Below are positions 25,973 to 33,006 of a DNA stretch of 64,000 nucleotides, one piece after another. Below the pieces are notes generated by a model that worked only from the letters and a program-made list of their open reading frames with translations, was not told the origin of the DNA and searched no databases. The translations under genes and the position numbers were made by a program. Position 1 is the first letter of the stretch. Each line of letters opens with the position of its first letter. This stretch comes from Butyricimonas faecalis (GTDB lineage: Bacteria; Bacteroidota; Bacteroidia; Bacteroidales; Marinifilaceae), in NCBI RefSeq assembly GCF_003991565.1, contig NZ_CP032819.1:4030001-4094000 (forward strand), written 5' to 3'.

Positions 25973-25995
25973 AATTGTTGTTATTTGGAGGAAAG

Positions 25996-26023
25996 GTCGG
26001 GCTGTTGTCAGTCCGGCTTTTTT
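25996..26023 (+). terminator. Rho-independent terminator of the CysQ-M18 gene
   Basis: GTCGGGCTG (25996-26004), loop TTGT, CAGTCCGGC (26009-26017; two G-U pairs), then six T. It begins 23 bp after the stop codon. Confidence 0.85.
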
Positions 26024-26035
26024 GCTTAAAAACAG

Positions 26036-26225
26036 ATGAAAATGAAATTTACATTATTGTTTTTTTTATCATTAATATCTTTTTCACTAGGTACTACGCA
26101 AATATCTAAAGTAAAAAATAAAAAAGTCAAACTGCAATTAAATAATAAGGTTTTTGAACTTTACGTACCTAAAGGGTACATATTGTCAATTAATACGACA
26201 ATAGAAAATGTTGAATATTTGTTTA
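26036..26225 (+). pseudogene. Secreted small protein, N-terminal fragment interrupted by the transposon
   Basis: Begins with ATG and a clear signal peptide ('MKMKFTLLFFLSLISFSLG'), then 'VKLQLNNKVFELYVPKGYILSINT'. The reading frame runs into the transposon's left end and stops after two foreign bases-worth of codon (TAA at 26228-26230). Removing the 6452-bp element and one copy of the 8-bp duplication continues the frame as '..ENVEYLF-KYPDSSCIYVSD', which then leads into the 32710-33006 frame after one T is removed from a run of nine. The rebuilt protein would be about 162 residues, secreted, of unknown family. Confidence 0.75.
26218..26225. repeat. Target site duplication, left copy (TTTGTTTA)
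   Basis: Identical to 32678-32685 directly after the right end of the element. Eight bases is the duplication length known for IS1595-family elements. Confidence 0.92.
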
Positions 26226-26251
26226 GGTAACTATATACAAGTTTACACCAA
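26226..26251 (+). repeat. Left terminal inverted repeat
   Basis: Perfect inverted match to 32652-32677; begins GGTAACTATATACAAG. It also shares TACAAGT/ACTTGTA (26236-26242 and 26251-26257), a small palindrome found only at this end. Confidence 0.93.
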
Positions 26252-26260
26252 CTTGTAATT

Positions 26261-26293
26261 TATAAAGGGATAGAATAAAACTATCCCTTTTAT
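26261..26293. terminator. Bidirectional terminator just inside the left end
   Basis: AAAGGGATAG (26264-26273) pairs perfectly with CTATCCCTTT (26281-26290), flanked by A/T-rich tails on both sides. It can end the leftward toxin-antitoxin transcript and block read-in from outside the element. Confidence 0.75.
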
Positions 26294-26332
26294 AATTGTG
26301 TAACTGTCAGATTAAGTCTTGACTAATTCAAA

Positions 26333-26734
26333 TTATTTATCCCTTAAATCAACATCTTGTTTCATAAATTGGAAAAATCCCTTTAATACAATTAAAGCAA
26401 GCCCTATTACAGTTGCTGTTGTAGTTCCCAATATTGCTATTAAAACTGAATCATGTAAACTATAACACGCTCTGTTGTTCATTAATATTATAATAACACA
26501 AGTTATCCAACCAAAAATCAACAATTGGGTTGAACAAGCTAATATGATTCTTACAATTGTATCAAATCTATAACGACTTTTTAACAGTTGATGAACTTCC
26601 TCTTCCCATGTTTTTTTCAATGTTTGTTCGGGAAGAGCATCTTTATCTGATGAATTCTTTCGATGATTAGTACGTTCGATGGTCTTGAAAAGTTCATCTA
26701 AATTCAAATTTGCATCAATATCACTGTTCATCAT
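26333..26734 (-). CDS. Two-helix membrane protein, putative toxin paired with Panacea antitoxin
   Basis: 133 residues. The first 55 are charged and hydrophilic; then two membrane helices ('IVRIILACSTQLLIFGWITCVIIILM', about 61-86, described in two parts here: IVRIILACSTQLL then IFGWITCVIIILM; and 'SVLIAILGTTTATVIGLA' about 97-114). Its start overlaps the end of the Panacea gene by 14 bp, so the two are translated together. In PanAT systems the gene beside a Panacea antitoxin is a toxin, and one known class is small proteins with membrane helices that depolarise the membrane. Assignment rests on position and topology; no toxin domain was recognised by sequence. Confidence 0.55.
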   Translation of the reverse strand: MMNSDIDANLNLDELFKTIERTNHRKNSSDKDALPEQTLKKTWEEEVHQLLKSRYRFDTIVRIILACSTQLLIFGWITCVIIILMNNRACYSLHDSVLIAILGTTTATVIGLALIVLKGFFQFMKQDVDLRDK

Positions 26735-27206
26735 CGTTAAGTTTTACAAATGAAAAGAAATAGTTGAAAATATCTTCGTCATCTAATTTTGTATTCCATT
26801 TTCCTCCACTATTTTGAACTGCTATATCCCATGGGCTATCTTTTTGATGTGACCATTCAGACAATTGTCCTGCTGATAATTTTCCAAATTTTTGAACAAC
26901 TTGGTCAATTATACTCGTAATAAATGAGCATCTATTTTTAATTTCATTATATGCTTCTTCCGTTATGTCATCTGATAACTTTATTTTTTTGTGTACCCGT
27001 GGAAAAACAGGACCATAAGGCCATGCGCTTGGATGTTCTGTGGTTAATCTTTCTTTATGAATAACAAGTATTGTACCATATATAATATACATCAATTTTT
27101 GTATTTGAGTCATGTTTACACTCAAATTATGCTGTTTAGCAGAATATCTTATTGCCTTGGCTATGTCAATACTATCAAAGTTTAATTCGGTAAAGTTTGT
27201 TGCCAT
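26721..27206 (-). CDS. Panacea-domain (DUF4065/SocA-like) antitoxin
   Basis: 161 residues. Panacea hallmarks are visible: 'TQIQKLMYIIYGTILV' near the start, 'AWPYGPVFPRVHKKIKL' in the middle and 'LSAGQLSEWSHQKDSPWDIAV' towards the end. Panacea proteins act as hyperpromiscuous antitoxins in PanAT systems; SocA of Caulobacter and GepA-like phage proteins share the fold. It precedes and overlaps the gene for a two-helix membrane protein (26333-26734), a likely toxin. As a cargo module it would stabilise the transposon or protect its host from phage. An inverted repeat at 27248-27266 lies upstream and could be its operator. Confidence 0.8.
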   Translation of the reverse strand: MATNFTELNFDSIDIAKAIRYSAKQHNLSVNMTQIQKLMYIIYGTILVIHKERLTTEHPSAWPYGPVFPRVHKKIKLSDDITEEAYNEIKNRCSFITSIIDQVVQKFGKLSAGQLSEWSHQKDSPWDIAVQNSGGKWNTKLDDEDIFNYFFSFVKLNDDEQ

Positions 27207-27247
27207 ATCTGCTTAATTTTTTATGCTATAAATATATGAAAAATATG

Positions 27248-27266
27248 CCTAATGCCAAAAATTAGG
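27248..27266. promoter_or_regulatory. Small palindrome between transposase unit and Panacea gene
   Basis: CCTAAT (27248-27253) and ATTAGG (27261-27266) form a 6-bp stem with a 7-nt loop in the 61-bp gap upstream of the Panacea start. It may be an operator for the toxin-antitoxin pair or a weak terminator for the gene at 27268-27645. Confidence 0.3.
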
Positions 27267-27267
27267 A

Positions 27268-27645
27268 CTATTTTTCTTTCTTGTTTGGATTATAATTCAA
27301 CGCTTGAATTATGAGTTTATCAAACGAACCTAATTCTCTTTCTTCCGATGGCAAATCATCCTCTCCATTTTCTTGCAAAACATGGTCAAGCAAAAAGGGA
27401 AAACTACGCATCACTATTTGATTGAGTATCGTTTTGTTTACGTTTCGAAGAACGTGAGATAGTAAACAACCGCTTGCTTCTTTACCCGTGAGTGTTTCCA
27501 CTTTCACGATGCTTGCATCACAACCTTTCCGGTAAAACTGGATAATAGCTTCATCCAGTAAATATTCCCCTGTATCCAGTAAATAAACCCGTATGTCTTT
27601 AGCTCCTAGCTGGACTTTCCCCACTTTAACTATCTTGTTAGCCAT
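27268..27645 (-). CDS. Unknown protein overlapping the transposase gene
   Basis: 125 residues, not recognised. It starts 8 bp before the transposase stop on the same strand, so it is in the transposase operon and may be translationally coupled. Visible features are a basic beta-rich first half ('KVGKVQLGAKDIRVYLLDTGEYLLDEAIIQF' in outline, residues about 5-37), a 'GKEASGCLLSHVLRNVNKTIL' segment and a charged, lysine-rich end. No membrane helix. A role as a transposition accessory or regulator is possible from position only. Confidence 0.6.
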   Translation of the reverse strand: MANKIVKVGKVQLGAKDIRVYLLDTGEYLLDEAIIQFYRKGCDASIVKVETLTGKEASGCLLSHVLRNVNKTILNQIVMRSFPFLLDHVLQENGEDDLPSEERELGSFDKLIIQALNYNPNKKEK

Positions 27646-28564
27646 GTATCAATTGTTTATAAGTCAATCTATGCCCTCCAATCTTTTGCAAAAATAAGAA
27701 AAATCTTTCGCTTTCACTCTCGAAATCACGAGTATTGTACCTGAACGCAAATTCGTCCACGTACTTCTGTAAATGTTTCTTGGAAGTGAAGTGATAGATA
27801 CCGATAATTCCTCTTTTCAGTAAAGACCAGAATCCTTCTATCGTGTTCGTGTAAACGTTACCGTTCACGAACTCTTTTTCGTTGTGTCTCACGAACAAAT
27901 GGTTATATATCTTGTTCACTTGCTTGTAACCTAACCATTCATCCGTGTAAACCGTTGCGGTTTCTTTCACGATTTTCACGACTTCTGGCGTGATATGTTG
28001 AGAAGAAGTACTTTCAACTTGCTTTGCAACAACCTTGCCAGCTTCCCTTTCAATCATACCTAAAACAGGGGTTTTCTCTTTAGTGCTTCTACCTTGCGTT
28101 CCATCGACTTTTTTTGAAGCGTGTTTATTCTTTTCCTTCCCACCGATATAAGTTTCATCAATTTCCACCGTACCTTCAAATTCCGAGTTATTCTCGATGC
28201 CAAAACAATTTCTAATTCTTTGAAGCATGAACCAAGCAGTCTTTTGCGTCACGTCAATATCTTTCGATAACTGTAACGATGAAATACCTTTCTTGTGAGA
28301 AGTAGCAATCCAGATAGCCATAAACCACTTTTGTAGTTCAATTTTGGTGTTATCAAACAAGGTGTTAGTTTTGACGTTGAAGTACTTTCCCGTGTTTTTG
28401 CATTTATAATTGTGTCCCTTGCACTTGTACACTTTAGAGTTCGGGTCAAACGGGGAAACCACGTTCCCGTTCCATCTTGCCTCTTCCAGATAAGAGAAAC
28501 ATTCCTCGTCAGAAGGAAATGCCTTTAGTAACTCGAATAGCGATTTAAATGCAAACCCCATCAT
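27638..28564 (-). CDS. IS1595-family (ISXO2-like) transposase
   Basis: 308 residues. Domain order is that of IS1595 transposases: a zinc-ribbon-like region (Cys48 and Cys55 visible in 'YKCKGHNYKCKNTGKYF'), a helix-turn-helix stretch ('SLQLSKDIDVTQKTAWFMLQ', about 96-115), then the RNase H-fold catalytic domain with Asp136 (EIDETYIGG), Asp208 (YTDEW) and Asn240/Glu243 (TNTIEGFWSLLKRG). The first half of the zinc ribbon lacks the usual CxxC. Likely start is the ATG at 28564 (a second ATG follows directly). Expressed leftwards from a consensus promoter overlapped by a large palindrome. It would act on the 26-bp ends at 26226 and 32677. Confidence 0.93.
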   Translation of the reverse strand: MMGFAFKSLFELLKAFPSDEECFSYLEEARWNGNVVSPFDPNSKVYKCKGHNYKCKNTGKYFNVKTNTLFDNTKIELQKWFMAIWIATSHKKGISSLQLSKDIDVTQKTAWFMLQRIRNCFGIENNSEFEGTVEIDETYIGGKEKNKHASKKVDGTQGRSTKEKTPVLGMIEREAGKVVAKQVESTSSQHITPEVVKIVKETATVYTDEWLGYKQVNKIYNHLFVRHNEKEFVNGNVYTNTIEGFWSLLKRGIIGIYHFTSKKHLQKYVDEFAFRYNTRDFESESERFFLFLQKIGGHRLTYKQLIHG

Positions 28565-28592
28565 AATGTCTATCGTTTTAAAGATTACAGTA

Positions 28593-28644
28593 CAAAGATA
28601 AGAAATATATTACACCAAACAAAATATTAGTGTAATATATTTCT
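28593..28644 (-). promoter_or_regulatory. Transposase promoter overlapped by a 15-bp-arm palindrome
   Basis: On the minus strand the -33 TTTG (28623-28620), a 19-bp spacer and the -7 TATCTTTG (28600-28593) match the Bacteroides consensus. A perfect inverted repeat with 15-bp arms, AGAAATATATTACAC at 28601-28615 and its complement at 28630-28644, covers the spacer and the area just upstream. This is a strong operator candidate, or a hairpin that would limit transposase expression from read-through transcripts. Confidence 0.75.
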
Positions 28645-28659
28645 AAAATCTTTTCACAA

Positions 28660-28706
28660 TGAACCATTATGAACTTGTTTCCTTTTGAGTAAAATCTCTA
28701 CCTTTG
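28660..28706 (+). promoter_or_regulatory. Promoter with shared TGAAC motif for the 28739 gene
   Basis: TGAACCATTATGAACTTG at 28660-28677 contains the direct repeat TGAAC-N5-TGAAC and ends in a -33-like CTTG (28674-28677). A 21-bp spacer follows, then -7 TACCTTTG (28699-28706), 33 bp before the ATG. The same block is found at the promoter near 31955-32000. Confidence 0.65.
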
Positions 28707-28738
28707 AGAACTTTACAAACTTTTTAAAAAGAAAGATT

Positions 28739-29044
28739 ATGAAACTGCATCAGAAAGAGATTTTTAAGCAATACATTAAACCTAAAAGTAGCTTAACTCC
28801 ATCCCATGAAACTAATTTTGTGGATATTAGACATATAACTATATCATTAAAACATGATATGCCTATCCAGTATTTAAGTAGTGAGACTAAAAACGAATTA
28901 TACTTTGTGGATGTCAATTTTGACCCTCAAAGTAAGAATAACATTTTGACAGTCTTTTCTAACAAAGAAGTTGCAGAAAAATATTATAGGGAACTCAAAA
29001 ATGAAATTGAAAAAATCACGCAAAAATATTCTTTATCTGAGTAA
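28739..29044 (+). CDS. Small unknown cargo protein
   Basis: 101 residues, starting MKLHQKEIFKQY. A TTG-started longer reading (from 28685) would include the promoter, so the ATG at 28739 is preferred. The sequence is hydrophilic, mixed alpha/beta, ending in a charged helix ('EVAEKYYRELKNEIEKITQKY'). No family recognised. It has its own promoter carrying the TGAAC-N5-TGAAC motif and its 3' end overlaps the convergent gene at 29033 by 12 bp. Confidence 0.6.
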   Translation: MKLHQKEIFKQYIKPKSSLTPSHETNFVDIRHITISLKHDMPIQYLSSETKNELYFVDVNFDPQSKNNILTVFSNKEVAEKYYRELKNEIEKITQKYSLSE

Positions 29045-29296
29045 TCTTTTAGCTTCTTCTTCGGTTAAATTGTGCTTTTTGACATACTCATCAAATAACG
29101 GAAAGAAAATGGAATCAAAATCATATTTTGATGTAATAAACGGATGATAATCAGAAAAAAATATTCGTCTAACAGCATTGTCGTATGCTCCATGCTGTGA
29201 TTTTCTTAACGCTTCATTGATATGAAACTTGTAAATATCAACATTTTGTTGACGTTCATCATATGTTTCTTCGGTATTTTTTATCTCTTGTTTCAT
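29033..29296 (-). CDS. Small unknown acidic/aromatic protein
   Basis: 87 residues, cytoplasmic by composition. It contains 'DIYKFHINEALRKSQHGAYDNAVRRIFFSDY' in outline (residues about 20-50) and ends in a helix 'NLTEEEAKRLLR'. No family recognised. It lies downstream of the peptide gene and its terminator, on the same strand, and overlaps the convergent 28739 gene by 12 bp. Confidence 0.5.
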   Translation of the reverse strand: MKQEIKNTEETYDERQQNVDIYKFHINEALRKSQHGAYDNAVRRIFFSDYHPFITSKYDFDSIFFPLFDEYVKKHNLTEEEAKRLLR

Positions 29297-29354
29297 GTCT
29301 CAAGTAATTTTATTACTCATAATATAATAAACTCTTAAAGCATTTTCAATAGAT

Positions 29355-29386
29355 AACTAGGCGTATCTGAAAAAATACACCTAGTT
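29355..29386. terminator. Terminator hairpin after the peptide gene
   Basis: AACTAGG-C-GTAT (29355-29366) pairs with ATAC-A-CCTAGTT (29375-29386) with one mismatch and an 8-nt A-rich loop. It starts 11 bp after the stop of the 34-codon gene and closes the radical SAM operon. Confidence 0.65.
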
Positions 29387-29397
29387 ATTTTCATCTA

Positions 29398-29502
29398 CTA
29401 TCCGTGTCTAGAGGAAATTCCACAAGAGTAATCAGAAGATTTTCCACATCCCGGGATAGCCTTCACGCTTGATGACATCTCGATTGAAAGAGTTATTTTC
29501 AT
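29398..29502 (-). CDS. Putative RiPP precursor peptide, 34 residues
   Basis: A short ATG-to-TAG frame 63 bp after the radical SAM stop, on the same strand and before a terminator. The C-terminal half reads PGCGKSSDYSCGISSRHG: two cysteines (Cys19, Cys27) eight residues apart among Ser, Gly, Asp and Tyr. The N-terminal half is a short leader-like stretch rich in Ser with Lys2, Glu8 and Lys14. A purine-rich AAGAAAAG lies about 12-19 bases before the ATG. Small Cys/Ser/Gly-rich peptides beside SPASM radical SAM enzymes are usually their substrates, in which cysteine sulfur is crosslinked to a backbone carbon (sactipeptide or ranthipeptide). Role is inferred from context; the leader is shorter than in many precursors. 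Confidence 0.55.
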   Translation of the reverse strand: MKITLSIEMSSSVKAIPGCGKSSDYSCGISSRHG

Positions 29503-29565
29503 AATCGTATAACTTTTCTTGTTACAAGGTTAGTTCAGGACAACCTATTTATCCTTGCATCCCTG

Positions 29566-31125
29566 TTATTCCCAATGCTTCTCTCTATAATTTTCTCCCA
29601 CTTCTTTCTTGAAAGAAACAGGCGTGTTTATTACTATTTGCCCCAGTTTATCATGAATAGATGAACCATTTAACGGGTCTTGTCCGTTCTTTAGCTTACA
29701 AGCTAGATTATACCTAACTTCTGCCATGAAACAATTAACCGATGAAGCCTTGTACGGGGTCCCGTGTTCCACGTAAGCGTTACCGATACAGAGAAAACAG
29801 AATGCACATTTGTCATGCTTGCCACATTCATCTATATCCTTGACTTTTAAAGATTGCCATCGTTTTAAAGTCTGACTCGTGTTTAGTATCTCTTCAACTG
29901 TTTTTTCATTCAAGTTACCCAGTGAAGCCGGAAAAGCGCAACATGGAGTCAGATTTCCTTCCGGCGTGATGTTGAACGTGCCAGAAGCTGCCAGACATGG
30001 AGAGGCCTCCATATCCCTGTCTCTCGCACCGTAATTGGGTAACTCTTTTCCGACATACATGGAAATATTTTTGTCAAGTAAAACGATTTCTAGCACTTCA
30101 GGTGGAAGACGAAGGTTATTAACTACAGAAGTATCCCCGTCAACACCGTTACTTAAATTAACTTCGTATTGAAGTACCGCCCCGTGTTCTTTTGCGAGAG
30201 ATTCAACGGTTTGGTATGATTTCACGTTCGTTTTAAAAATAACACACTTAAACGCCATCGGAATCCCGTAACGCCCTATGTCCTTAACGGTTTGTAATGT
30301 TCTTTTCAAAGAACCATTAACTCGTGTTATCTTGTCATGCACCATCTCGTCAGCACTATATATAGATATACCAACAAGGCGAGGATAAAGAGAGCGTAAC
30401 CTATCCACGCTATGCGTGATTGATAATCCGTTCGTGTATATATCAAACACGATATTCTTGTTATACAAATAGTCCAAAATCTCCCATACTTCAGGTTTGG
30501 AAAACGGGTCTCCTCCCGTCAAACATACACGATACAACCCTAGTGAATATAGTTCATCAATTATTCTTTTGTAATCATTTAACGTTAGTTCTTTCCGGTT
30601 TCGTTTACTTGTTTCATCAGATTCACGTGCTGCACCATCGTTAAAACAATGTATGCATTTTGCGCTACAATTATAGGTTAGTTCAAACATAACACTTGTC
30701 ACGTGTTTCCCGTCGTTCAACGCTTCAGAATAAGCTTGTTCAGCTGAGGTAGTTTCGTAAACAAGAGTTTCTTTCTCTCCTTGCTGGGTCCAACGAGTTT
30801 GTCCTTTCACGTACTCACCTTGTTTAACTTGTAAAATTCTCACCTCTTCTTCTGATAGCACCGAAAAGGAAATCAATCCTACTTCGTGAAGCGTTTCGGC
30901 AAACTCATGAATGGAAGATACGTGTATACCAGTTTCTAGTGCTAATTTTTCTATATCTATACATTCGTTTCTTTTTAGAGCTAAAATACTTCCTATAACA
31001 TGAGCGGAATGACTTTTAAAGAAAAAAGATTCTCCACGAATCAAATTGTACGCAATTGCGACACTTTTCTCTGGAGAGTATCTACCGCTAACCCATAGAG
31101 GTCTATAAATCTGTTGTACGTTCAT
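29566..31125 (-). CDS. Radical SAM/SPASM peptide maturase with RRE-like N-terminus
   Basis: 519 residues. Residues about 20-90 have the alternating strand/helix pattern of a PqqD-like RiPP recognition element ('NLIRGESFFFKSHSAHVIGS' ... 'LALETGIHVSSIHEFAETL' ... 'GLIS'). The radical SAM core follows with the 4Fe-4S motif CxxxCxxC at Cys153, Cys157 and Cys160 (NCSAKCIHC) and the SAM-binding 'LTGGDPF'. The C-terminal SPASM domain is cysteine-rich ('LTPCCAFPASLGN', 'CGKHDKCAFCFLC'), for auxiliary clusters. This layout is that of enzymes that modify ribosomal peptides. A two-cysteine 34-residue peptide gene lies downstream; a promoter and leader RNA lie upstream. It is carried by the transposon, with no dedicated transporter or protease nearby. 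Product chemistry cannot be read from sequence. Confidence 0.88.
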   Translation of the reverse strand: MNVQQIYRPLWVSGRYSPEKSVAIAYNLIRGESFFFKSHSAHVIGSILALKRNECIDIEKLALETGIHVSSIHEFAETLHEVGLISFSVLSEEEVRILQVKQGEYVKGQTRWTQQGEKETLVYETTSAEQAYSEALNDGKHVTSVMFELTYNCSAKCIHCFNDGAARESDETSKRNRKELTLNDYKRIIDELYSLGLYRVCLTGGDPFSKPEVWEILDYLYNKNIVFDIYTNGLSITHSVDRLRSLYPRLVGISIYSADEMVHDKITRVNGSLKRTLQTVKDIGRYGIPMAFKCVIFKTNVKSYQTVESLAKEHGAVLQYEVNLSNGVDGDTSVVNNLRLPPEVLEIVLLDKNISMYVGKELPNYGARDRDMEASPCLAASGTFNITPEGNLTPCCAFPASLGNLNEKTVEEILNTSQTLKRWQSLKVKDIDECGKHDKCAFCFLCIGNAYVEHGTPYKASSVNCFMAEVRYNLACKLKNGQDPLNGSSIHDKLGQIVINTPVSFKKEVGENYREKHWE

Positions 31126-31190
31126 GTCAAGTTCAACTTATGTACTATATCACCTCTATAGATACCCTGATTCAAGGAGATTATTCACGT

Positions 31191-31430
31191 AAAAAAAAGC
31201 GTGGGTACTTTTTGTTTATCTTGTCCGAGGTACGACCAAGCACCCATTACCGAATAAACAGTCATCCCACGCTCGACCGGTTGTATATGTAAGAAACAAT
31301 ACAAGGCAAGCATGAGCGTTTGTTAGCTGTTTCATCCTCGGTAATAAAAATTGGTCGTTTTCGAACAAAGGATAAAGCAAAAACGCTTCATTAATCAACA
31401 TGTCCTGTCAGGAAACATTACTTCCTAACA
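31191..31430 (-). ncRNA. Candidate structured leader RNA or free RNA upstream of the maturase
   Basis: From a consensus promoter the minus-strand transcript runs about 240 nt to a long hairpin (AGCGTGGG 31273-31266 with CCCACGCT 31205-31198, plus inner TGTTTAT 31260-31254 with ATAAACA 31219-31213) followed by eight T (31198-31191), a terminator shape. Upstream segments pair with the loop: ACGACCAA (31358-31351) with TTGGTCGT (31239-31232), and CCGAGG (31341-31336) with CCTCGG (31230-31225); as a set these cross and would form a pseudoknot or alternative folds. Others: TGTTAG/CTAACA (31430-31425, 31326-31321) and AGCGTTT/AAACGCT (31387-31381, 31321-31315). It could be an attenuator controlling the maturase or a separate RNA. 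Some 6-8 bp matches are expected by chance in this length. Confidence 0.42.
31216..31401 (-). CDS. Possible 61-residue peptide inside the leader RNA
   Basis: An ATG frame ending 'TTGRAWDDCLFGNGCLVV' then PRTR, 30-40 bases after the likely transcription start and 90 bp before the maturase. A C-terminal stretch with Trp, Asp and two Cys would suit a second modified-peptide precursor. Against it: the first part is hydrophobic and not leader-like, and the codons double as arms of the terminator hairpin. It may be coding, or an open frame by chance within a structured RNA. Confidence 0.28.
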   Translation of the reverse strand: MLINEAFLLYPLFENDQFLLPRMKQLTNAHACLVLFLTYTTGRAWDDCLFGNGCLVVPRTR

Positions 31431-31436
31431 TTGGCG

Positions 31437-31467
31437 CAAAGATATAAAGGTTTTCTGAAACATCAAA
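31437..31467 (-). promoter_or_regulatory. Consensus promoter of the maturase leader RNA
   Basis: On the minus strand TTTG (31467-31464), exactly 19 bp, TATCTTTG (31444-31437): a full match to the Bacteroides consensus. Transcription should start near 31430. Confidence 0.8.
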
Positions 31468-31491
31468 CGCTCTGTGGGATGACTTTTATTA

Positions 31492-31505
31492 TTCATAATG
31501 GTTCA
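31492..31505 (-). promoter_or_regulatory. TGAACCATTATGAA motif upstream of the maturase promoter
   Basis: Fourteen bases identical to the block at 28660 and 31986-32000, here ending 24 bp before the -33 element on the minus strand. Possible regulator site shared by the cargo promoters. Confidence 0.5.
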
Positions 31506-31587
31506 TAAATTGAAAAAAAGTGCTATTTATTTCTATTTTCTATTGAAAAGAAAAGTTTTAATCAATAATTTTTAGAAAAATTACATT

Positions 31588-31785
31588 ATGAAAGTAAAAC
31601 TAACATGCCCGGAATGTGGAAACTATTTTTTCATTGATTACGAGGATGATATTATGAAATTTATCATAGAACTTGATAAAATTGGTTATCCATGTCTCAA
31701 ATGTGGAAATAGTGTTATTGCTAATAATAATAATGTTTCCTACCTTGAATATCAGGAACTACGACAGGAGGAACACCTTCATTAA
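31588..31785 (+). CDS. Small zinc-ribbon protein
   Basis: 65 residues with two CxxC knuckles, CPECG (Cys7, Cys10) and CLKCG (Cys36, Cys39), spaced as in a zinc ribbon, and a short acidic linker. Cytoplasmic, function unknown; such proteins may bind nucleic acid or act as adaptors. Its last 65 bp overlap the convergent gene at 31721-31930, which is unusual; both look real. Confidence 0.6.
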   Translation: MKVKLTCPECGNYFFIDYEDDIMKFIIELDKIGYPCLKCGNSVIANNNNVSYLEYQELRQEEHLH

Positions 31786-31930
31786 GTTCTTTTGCTCGGA
31801 TTTTTGCATCCTTTTCTGAGAAATAGATTTCACCATCTACAGGTATGTAATCACCTTTTACTCTATCATATCTAACAATTATGGTGGAACCATTTGTTTG
31901 TTCCTCCGTTGCAAATACAGGAATGTTCAT
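31721..31930 (-). CDS. Small unknown cargo protein
   Basis: 69 residues: beta-rich start ('IPVFATEEQTNGSTIIVRYD'), 'GEIYFSEKDAKIRAKELNEG' helix and a tyrosine-rich end. No family recognised. It has a promoter with the shared 21-bp block and a TAnnTTTG box 25 bp before the start, which supports it over the convergent overlap with 31588-31785. Confidence 0.55.
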   Translation of the reverse strand: MNIPVFATEEQTNGSTIIVRYDRVKGDYIPVDGEIYFSEKDAKIRAKELNEGVPPVVVPDIQGRKHYYY

Positions 31931-31954
31931 CTCTCTTGTTTTAAGTTTATTTTA

Positions 31955-32000
31955 CAAAAATATAGTACTAAAATGGATAAAACAAGTTCATAATGGTTCA
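31955..32000 (-). promoter_or_regulatory. Promoter with shared TGAAC motif for the 31721-31930 gene
   Basis: On the minus strand TGAACCATTATGAACTTG (32000-31983), 20 bp, TATTTTTG (31962-31955). The block including the -33-like CTTG is identical over 21 bases to that at 28660-28680. Confidence 0.65.
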
Positions 32001-32053
32001 CAAATAAAAAACAGGAACAACGTGATATTTATATTAGAAAGATTCTTTGTTAT

Positions 32054-32227
32054 ATGAACTCGGATGATAATAAAAATACGGTCTCAAGAACTCCTGAAGA
32101 AAACGTGAATGTTGATATGAACCTGTCAGCAAAACAACTCATACAAAAATATGATTGCGTTTATTTAGATGTGTTTAGCAGAATGTTCGACTACGAGATT
32201 GTACATCAATTTGAAGATATTAAATGA
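32054..32227 (+). CDS. Small acidic protein, possible antitoxin
   Basis: 57 residues, starting MNSDDNKNTVSRTPEE; an acidic disordered start, then 'LSAKQLIQKYDCVYLDVFSRMF'. Its stop overlaps the next start (ATGA at 32224-32227), so the two are translationally coupled. Size, charge and overlap with a basic partner fit a toxin-antitoxin pair, but no antitoxin family is recognised. Confidence 0.5.
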   Translation: MNSDDNKNTVSRTPEENVNVDMNLSAKQLIQKYDCVYLDVFSRMFDYEIVHQFEDIK

Positions 32228-32589
32228 TGAATATTGTTGTTAATAAAAATGTCGTGATGCGAATTGATAGCTTCGTGTCAATCTTGAAAATGAACTTCCA
32301 TTTCAATGAGAAAAACTTGCTAACCCAGAAAAATAAAATGCTCGTATCTTTAAGAAACCATATTAACAAGGTAACACAAAAATTACACAGTGCTACAAAA
32401 CAAGAACTGAAATATGGTTCAGGTTATTATTATTGGGAAGATGGCGTGAGTAACTACAGATGGATTTTTGATTATCGGGTATATTACAATCAAAACCTTG
32501 TCATCATACATCAGTTTCGTTGGGTTAATAAATTCCTTAAAAACAAGGAGGTGAAAACAGTACTTGATTTAATGGAGAGAATAATTTAA
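32224..32589 (+). CDS. Basic 121-residue protein, possibly RelE/ParE-like
   Basis: A lysine-rich first half ('NEKNLLTQKNKMLVSLRNHI'), then beta strands 'YRWIFDYRVYYNQNLVIIHQFRWVNKF' in outline (residues about 79-104), which resemble the last strands of RelE/ParE-type toxins (Y-R-x-x-Y-R-V..). The match is weak and the length is longer than usual. It is coupled to the small acidic gene before it and followed by a terminator, then by the right end of the transposon. Confidence 0.5.
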   Translation: MMNIVVNKNVVMRIDSFVSILKMNFHFNEKNLLTQKNKMLVSLRNHINKVTQKLHSATKQELKYGSGYYYWEDGVSNYRWIFDYRVYYNQNLVIIHQFRWVNKFLKNKEVKTVLDLMERII

Positions 32590-32591
32590 CA

Positions 32592-32637
32592 GGTACTCAT
32601 CTGAGTAAACATATGTCCTCAAGCGAGTACCCGTTTT
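32592..32637 (+). terminator. Terminator near the right end of the transposon
   Basis: GGTACTC (32592-32598) pairs with GAGTACC (32625-32631), followed by CGTTTTG. A competing small hairpin ACTCATCTGAGT lies inside. Confidence 0.55.
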
Positions 32638-32651
32638 GTATTAAAATGCTA

Positions 32652-32677
32652 TTGGTGTAAACTTGTATATAGTTACC
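32652..32677 (-). repeat. Right terminal inverted repeat
   Basis: Perfect inverted copy of 26226-26251, ending GTTACC at 32677. Followed directly by the second TTTGTTTA at 32678-32685. Confidence 0.93.
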
Positions 32678-33006
32678 TTTGTTTAAATATCCAGATTCTT
32701 CATGTATCTATGTTAGTGATTTTTTTTTATTCAAATAATGAACAAAATATAAGTCTTTTAGGTGATAGTATATATAAATTACGTTTTCAAAATGTCGAGC
32801 TTGTTAAAGAAATAAATGCACTAATTACAGACAATAGAATTTCAGTAAGACCAGACACCATGAATTTGATGGGGAAACAAAAAAATCAATTAATATGGAA
32901 AGATATTTCTATGAAAGACTTAAGTATAGGTTATTTTAATGTTCCAAGTTCGATGATAGAAATATTTAATAAATCTATATCTTCTTTAAGGCAGAAAATT
33001 AAATAG
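32678..33006 (+). pseudogene. Secreted small protein, C-terminal fragment right of the transposon
   Basis: Second half of the gene at 26036-26225. Starting with the duplicated TTTGTTTA, the frame reads KYPDSSCIYVSD, then meets a run of nine T (32720-32728). Removing one T gives FFYSNNEQNISLLGDS and runs on to 33006 ('SSLRQKIK'). As it stands the left frame would stop at 32738. An ATG at 32710 gives a 98-residue open frame but has no signal peptide and is probably not a real start. The T-run shift could be a real mutation after disruption, or a sequencing slip. Confidence 0.7.

Follow-up and report, generated by a model that had tools for sequence, protein, structure and literature searches.

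Transposons of the IS1595 family carry passenger genes and make 8-bp duplications, and riboswitches or attenuator leaders combine a promoter, a structured leader with alternative pairings and a U-rich 3' end with a gene start nearby. We analysed a 64,000-nucleotide stretch of Butyricimonas faecalis DNA (contig NZ_CP032819.1, positions 4,030,001 to 4,094,000; henceforth "the window"), which harbours at 26226-32677 a complete IS1595-family transposon of 6,452 bp and, within it, a 5' leader RNA of an operon headed by a radical-SAM (S-adenosylmethionine) maturase gene. The element resembles other IS1595 transposons with passengers in its transposase family, its inverted ends, its 8-bp duplication and the unrelated nature of its passengers, but differs from them in carrying a structured leader RNA. 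Other Bacteroidota members of the family carry this RNA as well, and our searches found no published report of this. The leader, in turn, resembles riboswitches and attenuators in its promoter, its structure, its U-rich 3' end and the nearby gene start, and in the alternative pairings which appear possible. Unlike these, it has no Rfam match and no known ligand, and the genes downstream of its copies belong to no common pathway. While a first-pass annotation of the window had listed the leader RNA as one cargo item among others, it is the notable part of the element.

Conserved structure, promoter, position and association with cargo genes are established for this RNA by computation. It probably represents a mobile cis-regulatory leader or switch of cargo genes which occurs in transposons and islands. 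As far as our searches reach, the RNA family is apparently new to description as well as widespread, the literature searched containing no description of it. One of 3,161 candidate RNAs published together, HMP2_1881, is a 108-bp sequence near Bacteroidetes radical-SAM genes and is reported to be expressed in 13 of 13 cases (PMC8040213). It shares with our leader the phylum and the radical-SAM neighbourhood, and the two were compared by description only, so that identity is neither shown nor excluded.

Structure of the leader RNA and its alternative pairings

When the DNA of the element was searched against six genomes of the genus, it was mainly the segment 31190-31405 which matched besides the element itself, and this in all six. 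Rfam 15 yielded no family at E <= 1, either for the RNA in the window or at 13 loci with other copies. Nineteen of 21 genus copies were aligned (alignment A2), with the omission of L073, whose 3' end is replaced, and of L081, which is close to L080; alignment A6 excludes two antisense matches of alignment A5, and the copy numbers given here disregard antisense matches of 17-32 bits. In A2, 54 pairs are formed with 93.7% of cells paired and 80 double-change cells (0/500 shuffles). Three helices of 8, 7 and 7 pairs connect the 5' half with the 3' half, and 7, 5 and 7 of these pairs, respectively, exhibit changes on both sides. Over the 19 copies the three helices comprise 118 double-change cells and reach a covariation of 0.740 compared to 0.243 +/- 0.023 in shuffled controls, which ignore the relatedness of the copies, and to at most 0.186 in slid controls, which preserve it. 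A further test used 32 diverse copies and a model blind to the helices, and counted the three helices plus a fourth, less variable hairpin. It gave 190 double-change cells and a covariation of 0.502 versus 0.190 +/- 0.012 (shuffled) and at most 0.124 (slid). The leader possesses a conserved structure supported by covariation, and the family is well supported as a structured RNA.

Folded as a single strand, the window copy reaches a z-score of -4.83 with 0 of 200 shuffles as good, and its minimum-energy fold is one long rod in which the strongly covarying helices are nested. Such a fold would suit a static, stable 5' untranslated rod which does not switch and serves to shield the mRNA or to insulate its translation. 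We consider this unlikely, since the outer strands keep open two exclusive pairings, which 96.7% and 96.9% of cells fit, and contain fixed G-U pairs at two columns. Moreover, a U-rich run follows the 3' strand (at least 6 U among the 8 nt ending and following this strand in 65 of 82 copies), and a hairpin loop located behind this run, just before the start codon, can pair back to the 3' strand. This pairing scores 15.59 in 50 long copies compared to 12.69 +/- 0.38 after permutation, and 13.09 compared to 11.11 +/- 0.40 in 27 other copies. A switch is suggested by the equally good fit of the outer strands to both of these exclusive pairings. Reading the long-range helices as a pseudoknot within one knotted fold was considered as well; the rod is the minimum-energy fold and the counts decide for neither, so no knot is claimed. 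A conserved peptide encoded in the leader RNA, judged by eye, was dropped because its frame is broken after a few codons in several copies.

The sequence preceding the leader (Table 1) is presumably its promoter, to judge from the Bacteroides-type consensus, and the core of the window leader ends 72 nt before the radical-SAM gene. TAnnTTTG is present upstream of 50 of the 53 long copies (4.3 expected), 20 of the 27 transposon copies (2.2) and 16 of the 19 short copies (1.6). In 46/53 long and 26/27 transposon copies, the RNA is followed at a distance of 15-130 nt by the start of an open reading frame (ORF), with medians of 58 and 52 nt. Apart from 10 of the 19 short copies, the RNA is thus situated between a promoter and a gene start. 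These ten, which lack an ORF start within 130 nt, would be compatible with a free-standing small RNA which lies beside the cargo by chance or acts in trans, as would the RNA's own promoter and the U-rich 3' end, which could serve as its own terminator. However, the near-constant spacing to the start codon in long and transposon copies as well as the conservation of base pairing to the hairpin which follows the U run renders a small RNA of this kind quite improbable.

Switching, and the step which it would control, we infer from these features. The cargo operon, consisting of the maturase, a 34-aa precursor and an 87-aa ORF, would be read from the element-internal promoter through the long structured leader. 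With the 5' half paired to the 3' half via the three covarying helices, the flanking strands would choose between the two mutually exclusive pairings, in one of which the last helix would be followed by the U-rich run in the manner of an intrinsic terminator, and the hairpin loop just before the start codon would pair back to the 3' strand. Because of this terminator-like arrangement and the pairing between loop and 3' strand, it is probably the leader which determines if the cargo continues to be transcribed or translated. In several transposon variants, the start-codon-proximal repeat and the inner 5' strand appear as if competing for one partner: mimicry of the inner 5' strand at the start codon (p < 0.05) is found in 9/26 transposon, 1/46 long and 0/9 short copies. 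In L229, L262, L263 and L286 and, more weakly, in L059, L258 and L267, the sequence immediately preceding the start codon is a repeat of the core helix's internal 5' strand; this repeat was not seen in the window copy. Tentatively, we envisage the possibility of a new class of large, bistable leader RNA in Bacteroidota, a ready-made promoter-plus-switch module which transposons and islands would transfer between genes and which would place newly arrived genes under one common host or environmental signal.

Mobile genes require expression signals which work in new hosts. If our interpretation is true, the leader constitutes a portable control module in transposon cargo and before variable surface-protein genes, which would explain a shared control of unrelated accessory genes in gut Bacteroidota. 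It provides a defined RNA for laboratory testing in Bacteroides.

Downstream genes and distribution of the RNA

Pfam analysis of the first genes downstream of the RNA, taking in 54 of 63 distinct proteins, revealed BACON as the commonest domain (5/54), besides leucine-rich repeats, DUF4988, AbiGi, SUMF1-like and radical-SAM domains. According to a simple hydropathy rule applied to distinct proteins, an N-terminal hydrophobic segment is present in 26/39 proteins behind long, 19/25 behind transposon and 3/8 behind short copies, and in 282/885 background ORFs. Hence, the genes behind long and transposon copies appear to encode unrelated, mostly secreted or membrane proteins. Outside transposons, many copies in the genus come after DUF3871 and RadC genes. 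An imperfect palindrome which heads variable genes behind the same two genes recalls the integron attC site, the precedent for folded single-stranded DNA as a recombination site, and the RNA locus could be imagined to serve the exchange of variable genes in a similar way. This is scarcely credible, however, as the RNA is located 5' of the cargo and its promoter occupies a constant position, as no second, cassette-closing copy was noticed in the loci read, and as the RNA is internal wherever it occurs in transposons.

Genome G014 contains 37 RNA copies in 2.6 Mb; behind 11 of 16 matches fetched from it (L121-L134) lie genes for paralogous proteins, mostly 940-970 aa long, which contain SUMF1-like and glycine-rich domains. 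It is also there that several of the contigs break off. At L138 (2349-3044), the gene behind an RNA copy encodes an AbiGi-type abortive-infection antitoxin (PF10899, 7.3e-36).

Two covariance models were used to follow the RNA: R1, trained on 19 Butyricimonas copies including that of the window, and R2, trained on several transposon copies including those of L216, L231, L251, L266 and L269. R1 detects the RNA in 30 of 56 family genomes and 129 of 393 order genomes, both figures including the own genome, and R2 detects it in 62 of 395 phylum genomes. The own genome holds 6 to 10 copies depending on search and filter, and many copies sit outside transposons. Among 20 loci with related transposases in the GTDB set (window included), nine could be mapped with ends and an exact 8-bp duplication, and R1 places the RNA inside eight of these nine elements, seven of them untrained. 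At the 11 loci without mapped ends, the RNA is near the transposase in four (L063, L064, L197 and, by R2 alone, L058) and absent in seven; L061 was covered solely in the R1 genome search, which gave no match there. Given the density of roughly 2 copies per Mb observed in the own genome, chance alone would place a copy in about one of 80 elements of 6 kb.

A second set consists of 80 named loci, the best 80 matches of the transposase scan; its locus L228 is identical to L058 of the GTDB set. A script mapped ends in 36 of them; 34 were retained after L221 and L285 had been dropped, whose long repeats are unlike the transposon ends. In these 80 loci R1 gives 10 matches at E <= 0.1 and R2 gives 17 at E <= 1. 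Within the 34 mapped elements (131,125 bases) R2 finds 11 matches, compared to none in 430,298 flank bases; eight of the 11 are untrained, and three of these eight are weak (L263 0.019, L258 0.055, L267 0.12). To judge from record titles, all 17 R2 matches lie in Bacteroidota records, while the 23 non-Bacteroidota loci of the set, Streptococcus included, have none. As IS110 and IS605 provide the precedent for guide, bridge or target-choice RNAs, the presence of the RNA in 8/9 and 11/34 mapped elements with none in the flanks of the latter might indicate a functional part of IS1595 transposition, of which the chromosomal copies would be remnants. We regard this as very improbable: the 23 non-Bacteroidota loci possess the same kind of transposase without the RNA, many copies lie outside transposons, and inside the elements the RNA is not at the ends but precedes a cargo gene. 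Because it is present in 11 of 34 mapped elements, with all 17 matches in Bacteroidota and none at the 23 other loci, the RNA appears to travel often as a passenger of Bacteroidota elements, without being required for transposition.

In four other radical-SAM loci for ribosomally synthesised and post-translationally modified peptides (RiPPs), the RNA is clear at L302 (51.7 bits, about 1 kb upstream of the maturase), weakly matched at L299 (20.5 bits, about 110 nt upstream) and absent from two. As a DNA query it found nothing in plasmids, and its 19-mer core has no exact match in viral contigs. When the element as a whole was compared with plasmid and phage DNA, 3 and 2 records, respectively, matched it in segments of the transposase; one match, to a faecal contig without annotation, covers the RNA segment.

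Several observations weigh against the RNA being a mobile cis-regulatory leader or limit the evidence for it. The outer helices are nearly invariant, with 3 and 5 double-change cells, so that neither switch nor knot is proven. In the 32-copy test, the third helix includes two pairs for which just 38% of cells are paired, and the count of pairs with changes on both sides is reached by 22 of 500 shuffles. An ORF start 15-130 nt behind the RNA is found in just 9 of the 19 short copies (median 49 nt). The downstream genes share no common function, so a ligand cannot be guessed. Roughly half of the mapped Bacteroidota elements are devoid of an RNA copy, as is L198 in the GTDB set, and the training sets of R1 and R2 held the window's copy and several transposon copies, respectively.

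The transposon, its relatives and the interrupted host gene

The first-pass annotation had reported perfect 26-bp inverted ends, repeats on their outer sides, a single ISXO2-type transposase and an AT-rich cargo of small genes, all of which was borne out. The ends agree in 26 of 26 bases (an inverted-repeat tool gives 27, one matching flank base being added), TTTGTTTA stands directly outside both as an 8-bp duplication, and the transposase gene is intact and encodes an ISXO2-type DDE transposase of the IS1595 family (NF033547 IS1595: 2.2e-60, 204 bits, cut-off 75; PF12762: 4.2e-45). Its residues D136, D208, E243 and K250 are invariant across 10 aligned relatives. The GC content of the element is 0.343, compared to 0.405 and 0.442 in the 10-kb flanks, and it contains about a dozen ORFs. 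At up to 3 mismatches, the terminal repeat occurs nowhere in the 4.98-Mb genome beyond the two ends, so the element is single-copy; that it is young and possibly still mobile, as had been proposed, is not shown. An inverted repeat upstream of the transposase gene resembles the inner part of the terminal repeat (Table 1), and the transposase may bind its own promoter there. About 60 bp inside the left end (26277-26340) are 83-90% similar to several places in genome G001, some at contig ends, and are perhaps the end of another insertion sequence.

As suggested by the earlier annotation, ends and transposase were compared among relatives. The ends of most mapped relatives follow the pattern GGTAAcTATATAC, which is thus common to elements of related transposases, and element length ranges from about 2 to 10 kb. 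The transposase family extends to Streptococcus, Proteobacteria and others. Since relatives repeat the layout with different sequences and duplications, the arrangement is judged not to be due to chance; as they bear, between their own ends and 8-bp duplications, different cargo, the transposon itself is an ordinary IS1595-family member with passenger genes. Of the earlier interpretation, the family, the complete ends, the 8-bp duplication and the passengers hence stand, in contrast to youth or mobility. At L059 (7999-8192), a long-class RNA copy has been separated from its promoter by an IS1595 element, whose insertion lies some 8 nt upstream of the copy. The IS1595-type element L060:3270-10095 contains a T4-baseplate-hub-like gene (PF12322, phrog_150) and an adjoining 1038-aa gene, apparently phage structural genes within a transposon.

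The element interrupts a host gene whose frame crosses the junction and then stops near 32719 in a T run. A public protein, P0123 (cluster of 18 sequences), reads on past this stop; the frameshift in the T run (32710-32735), a second lesion of the host gene which is absent from P0123, presumably reflects later decay or a sequencing error. The first-pass annotation had suggested looking for the uninterrupted gene in relatives. Among five relatives of the genus no clean empty site was found, the interrupted gene being absent there: left-flank matches stop at 25985-26043, and in G002 another gene occupies the site, matching resuming from 33079. The nearest counterpart is a diverged intact homologue, P0125 (166 aa), which runs across the junction and shares 62% identity with the right piece (98 aa) and, over 61 residues, 26% with the left piece. 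P0121, whose reading frame continues through the terminal repeat on the right, was considered as a different element at this site; after comparison of the translations we regard it as a variant form of this end.

Cargo genes and positions of the features

The Panacea gene, the radical-SAM maturase with its peptide and the leader RNA, all named by the earlier annotation, were found. The Panacea gene scores 77 bits against NF047745, under the cut-off of 190. Together with the overlapping gene of a 133-aa protein, it fits a toxin-antitoxin pair with a putative membrane toxin. Partner toxins of Panacea antitoxins are described as membrane-acting in the accessible part of the source, and the overlap with a small gene encoding hydrophobic stretches agrees with such pairs (PMC8832971); unlike in these, the 133-aa protein matches no Pfam, NCBIfam or PADLOC family.

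The 34-aa peptide ORF begins 63 nt after the maturase gene. A search of 295 genomes of the order revealed a 34-36-aa peptide 45-60 nt behind the maturase in 4 of 4 relatives (36-46% identity), with C-x7-C in two, one cysteine in one and C-S-C in one. Because of this recurrence in the same place, the peptide is probably a real precursor. With a SPASM maturase and a recurrent adjacent precursor, the locus probably constitutes a radical-SAM RiPP operon. It resembles those of Bacteroidales, as far as these are described in the accessible part of the source, in its SPASM maturase and short adjacent precursor; unlike there, the 34-36-aa precursors here belong to no recognised family and the element contains no transporter (PMC10352776). 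A defence function of the cargo was considered and rejected, as PADLOC gave viperin-type matches of the radical-SAM gene alone, taken as general homology.

Table 1. Features of the transposon and of the host gene it interrupts (window coordinates; a dot means that no strand applies)
Feature	Position	Strand	Basis or remark
Host gene, left half (secreted-type hypothetical protein, signal-like start)	26036..26225	+	ends in duplicated 8 bp
Target-site duplication TTTGTTTA, left copy	26218..26225	.	directly outside left end
Left terminal inverted repeat	26226..26251	+	GGTAACTATATACAAGTTTACACCAA, 26/26 bases vs right end
133-aa protein with hydrophobic stretches, putative toxin partner	26333..26734	-	beside Panacea gene
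Panacea-domain (SocA-like) putative antitoxin	26721..27206	-	PF13274 1.8e-15, above cut-off
125-aa ORF overlapping transposase stop	27268..27645	-	no match (Pfam, NCBIfam, PADLOC among libraries)
IS1595-family transposase, 308 aa	27638..28564	-	NF033547, PF12762, invariant residues
18-nt inverted repeat with TTACACCAA, upstream of transposase	28601..28644	.	resembles inner part of terminal repeat
TGAACCATTATGAA copy 1, candidate promoter/operator motif before 101-aa ORF	28660..28673	+	element-specific
101-aa ORF	28739..29044	+	ORF list
87-aa ORF of radical-SAM operon	29033..29296	-	ORF list
34-aa precursor peptide (probable) with C-x7-C	29398..29502	-	counterpart in 4/4 related loci
Radical-SAM/SPASM maturase, 519 aa	29566..31125	-	PF04055 9.9e-20, PF13186 1.7e-8
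5' leader RNA of radical-SAM operon, limits approximate; modelled core 31197-31389	31126..31435	-	covariance models, fold, promoter
Presumed leader promoter TTTG-N19-TATCTTTG	31437..31467	-	Bacteroides-type consensus
TGAACCATTATGAA copy 2, upstream of leader RNA	31492..31505	-	element-specific
Zinc-ribbon-like 65-aa ORF	31588..31785	+	matches below cut-offs
69-aa ORF	31721..31930	-	ORF list
TGAACCATTATGAA copy 3, upstream of 69-aa ORF	31987..32000	-	element-specific
57-aa ORF	32054..32227	+	ORF list
121-aa ORF	32224..32589	+	ORF list
Right terminal inverted repeat	32652..32677	-	inverted GGTAACTATATACAAGTTTACACCAA, 26/26 bases vs left end
Target-site duplication TTTGTTTA, right copy	32678..32685	.	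directly outside right end
Host gene, right part	32686..33006	+	ORF, homologues

The 14-mer TGAACCATTATGAA occurs in exactly three copies genome-wide, every one of which lies within the element. These sites may form a small regulon of the element's own and possibly serve as the operator for an element-encoded regulator.

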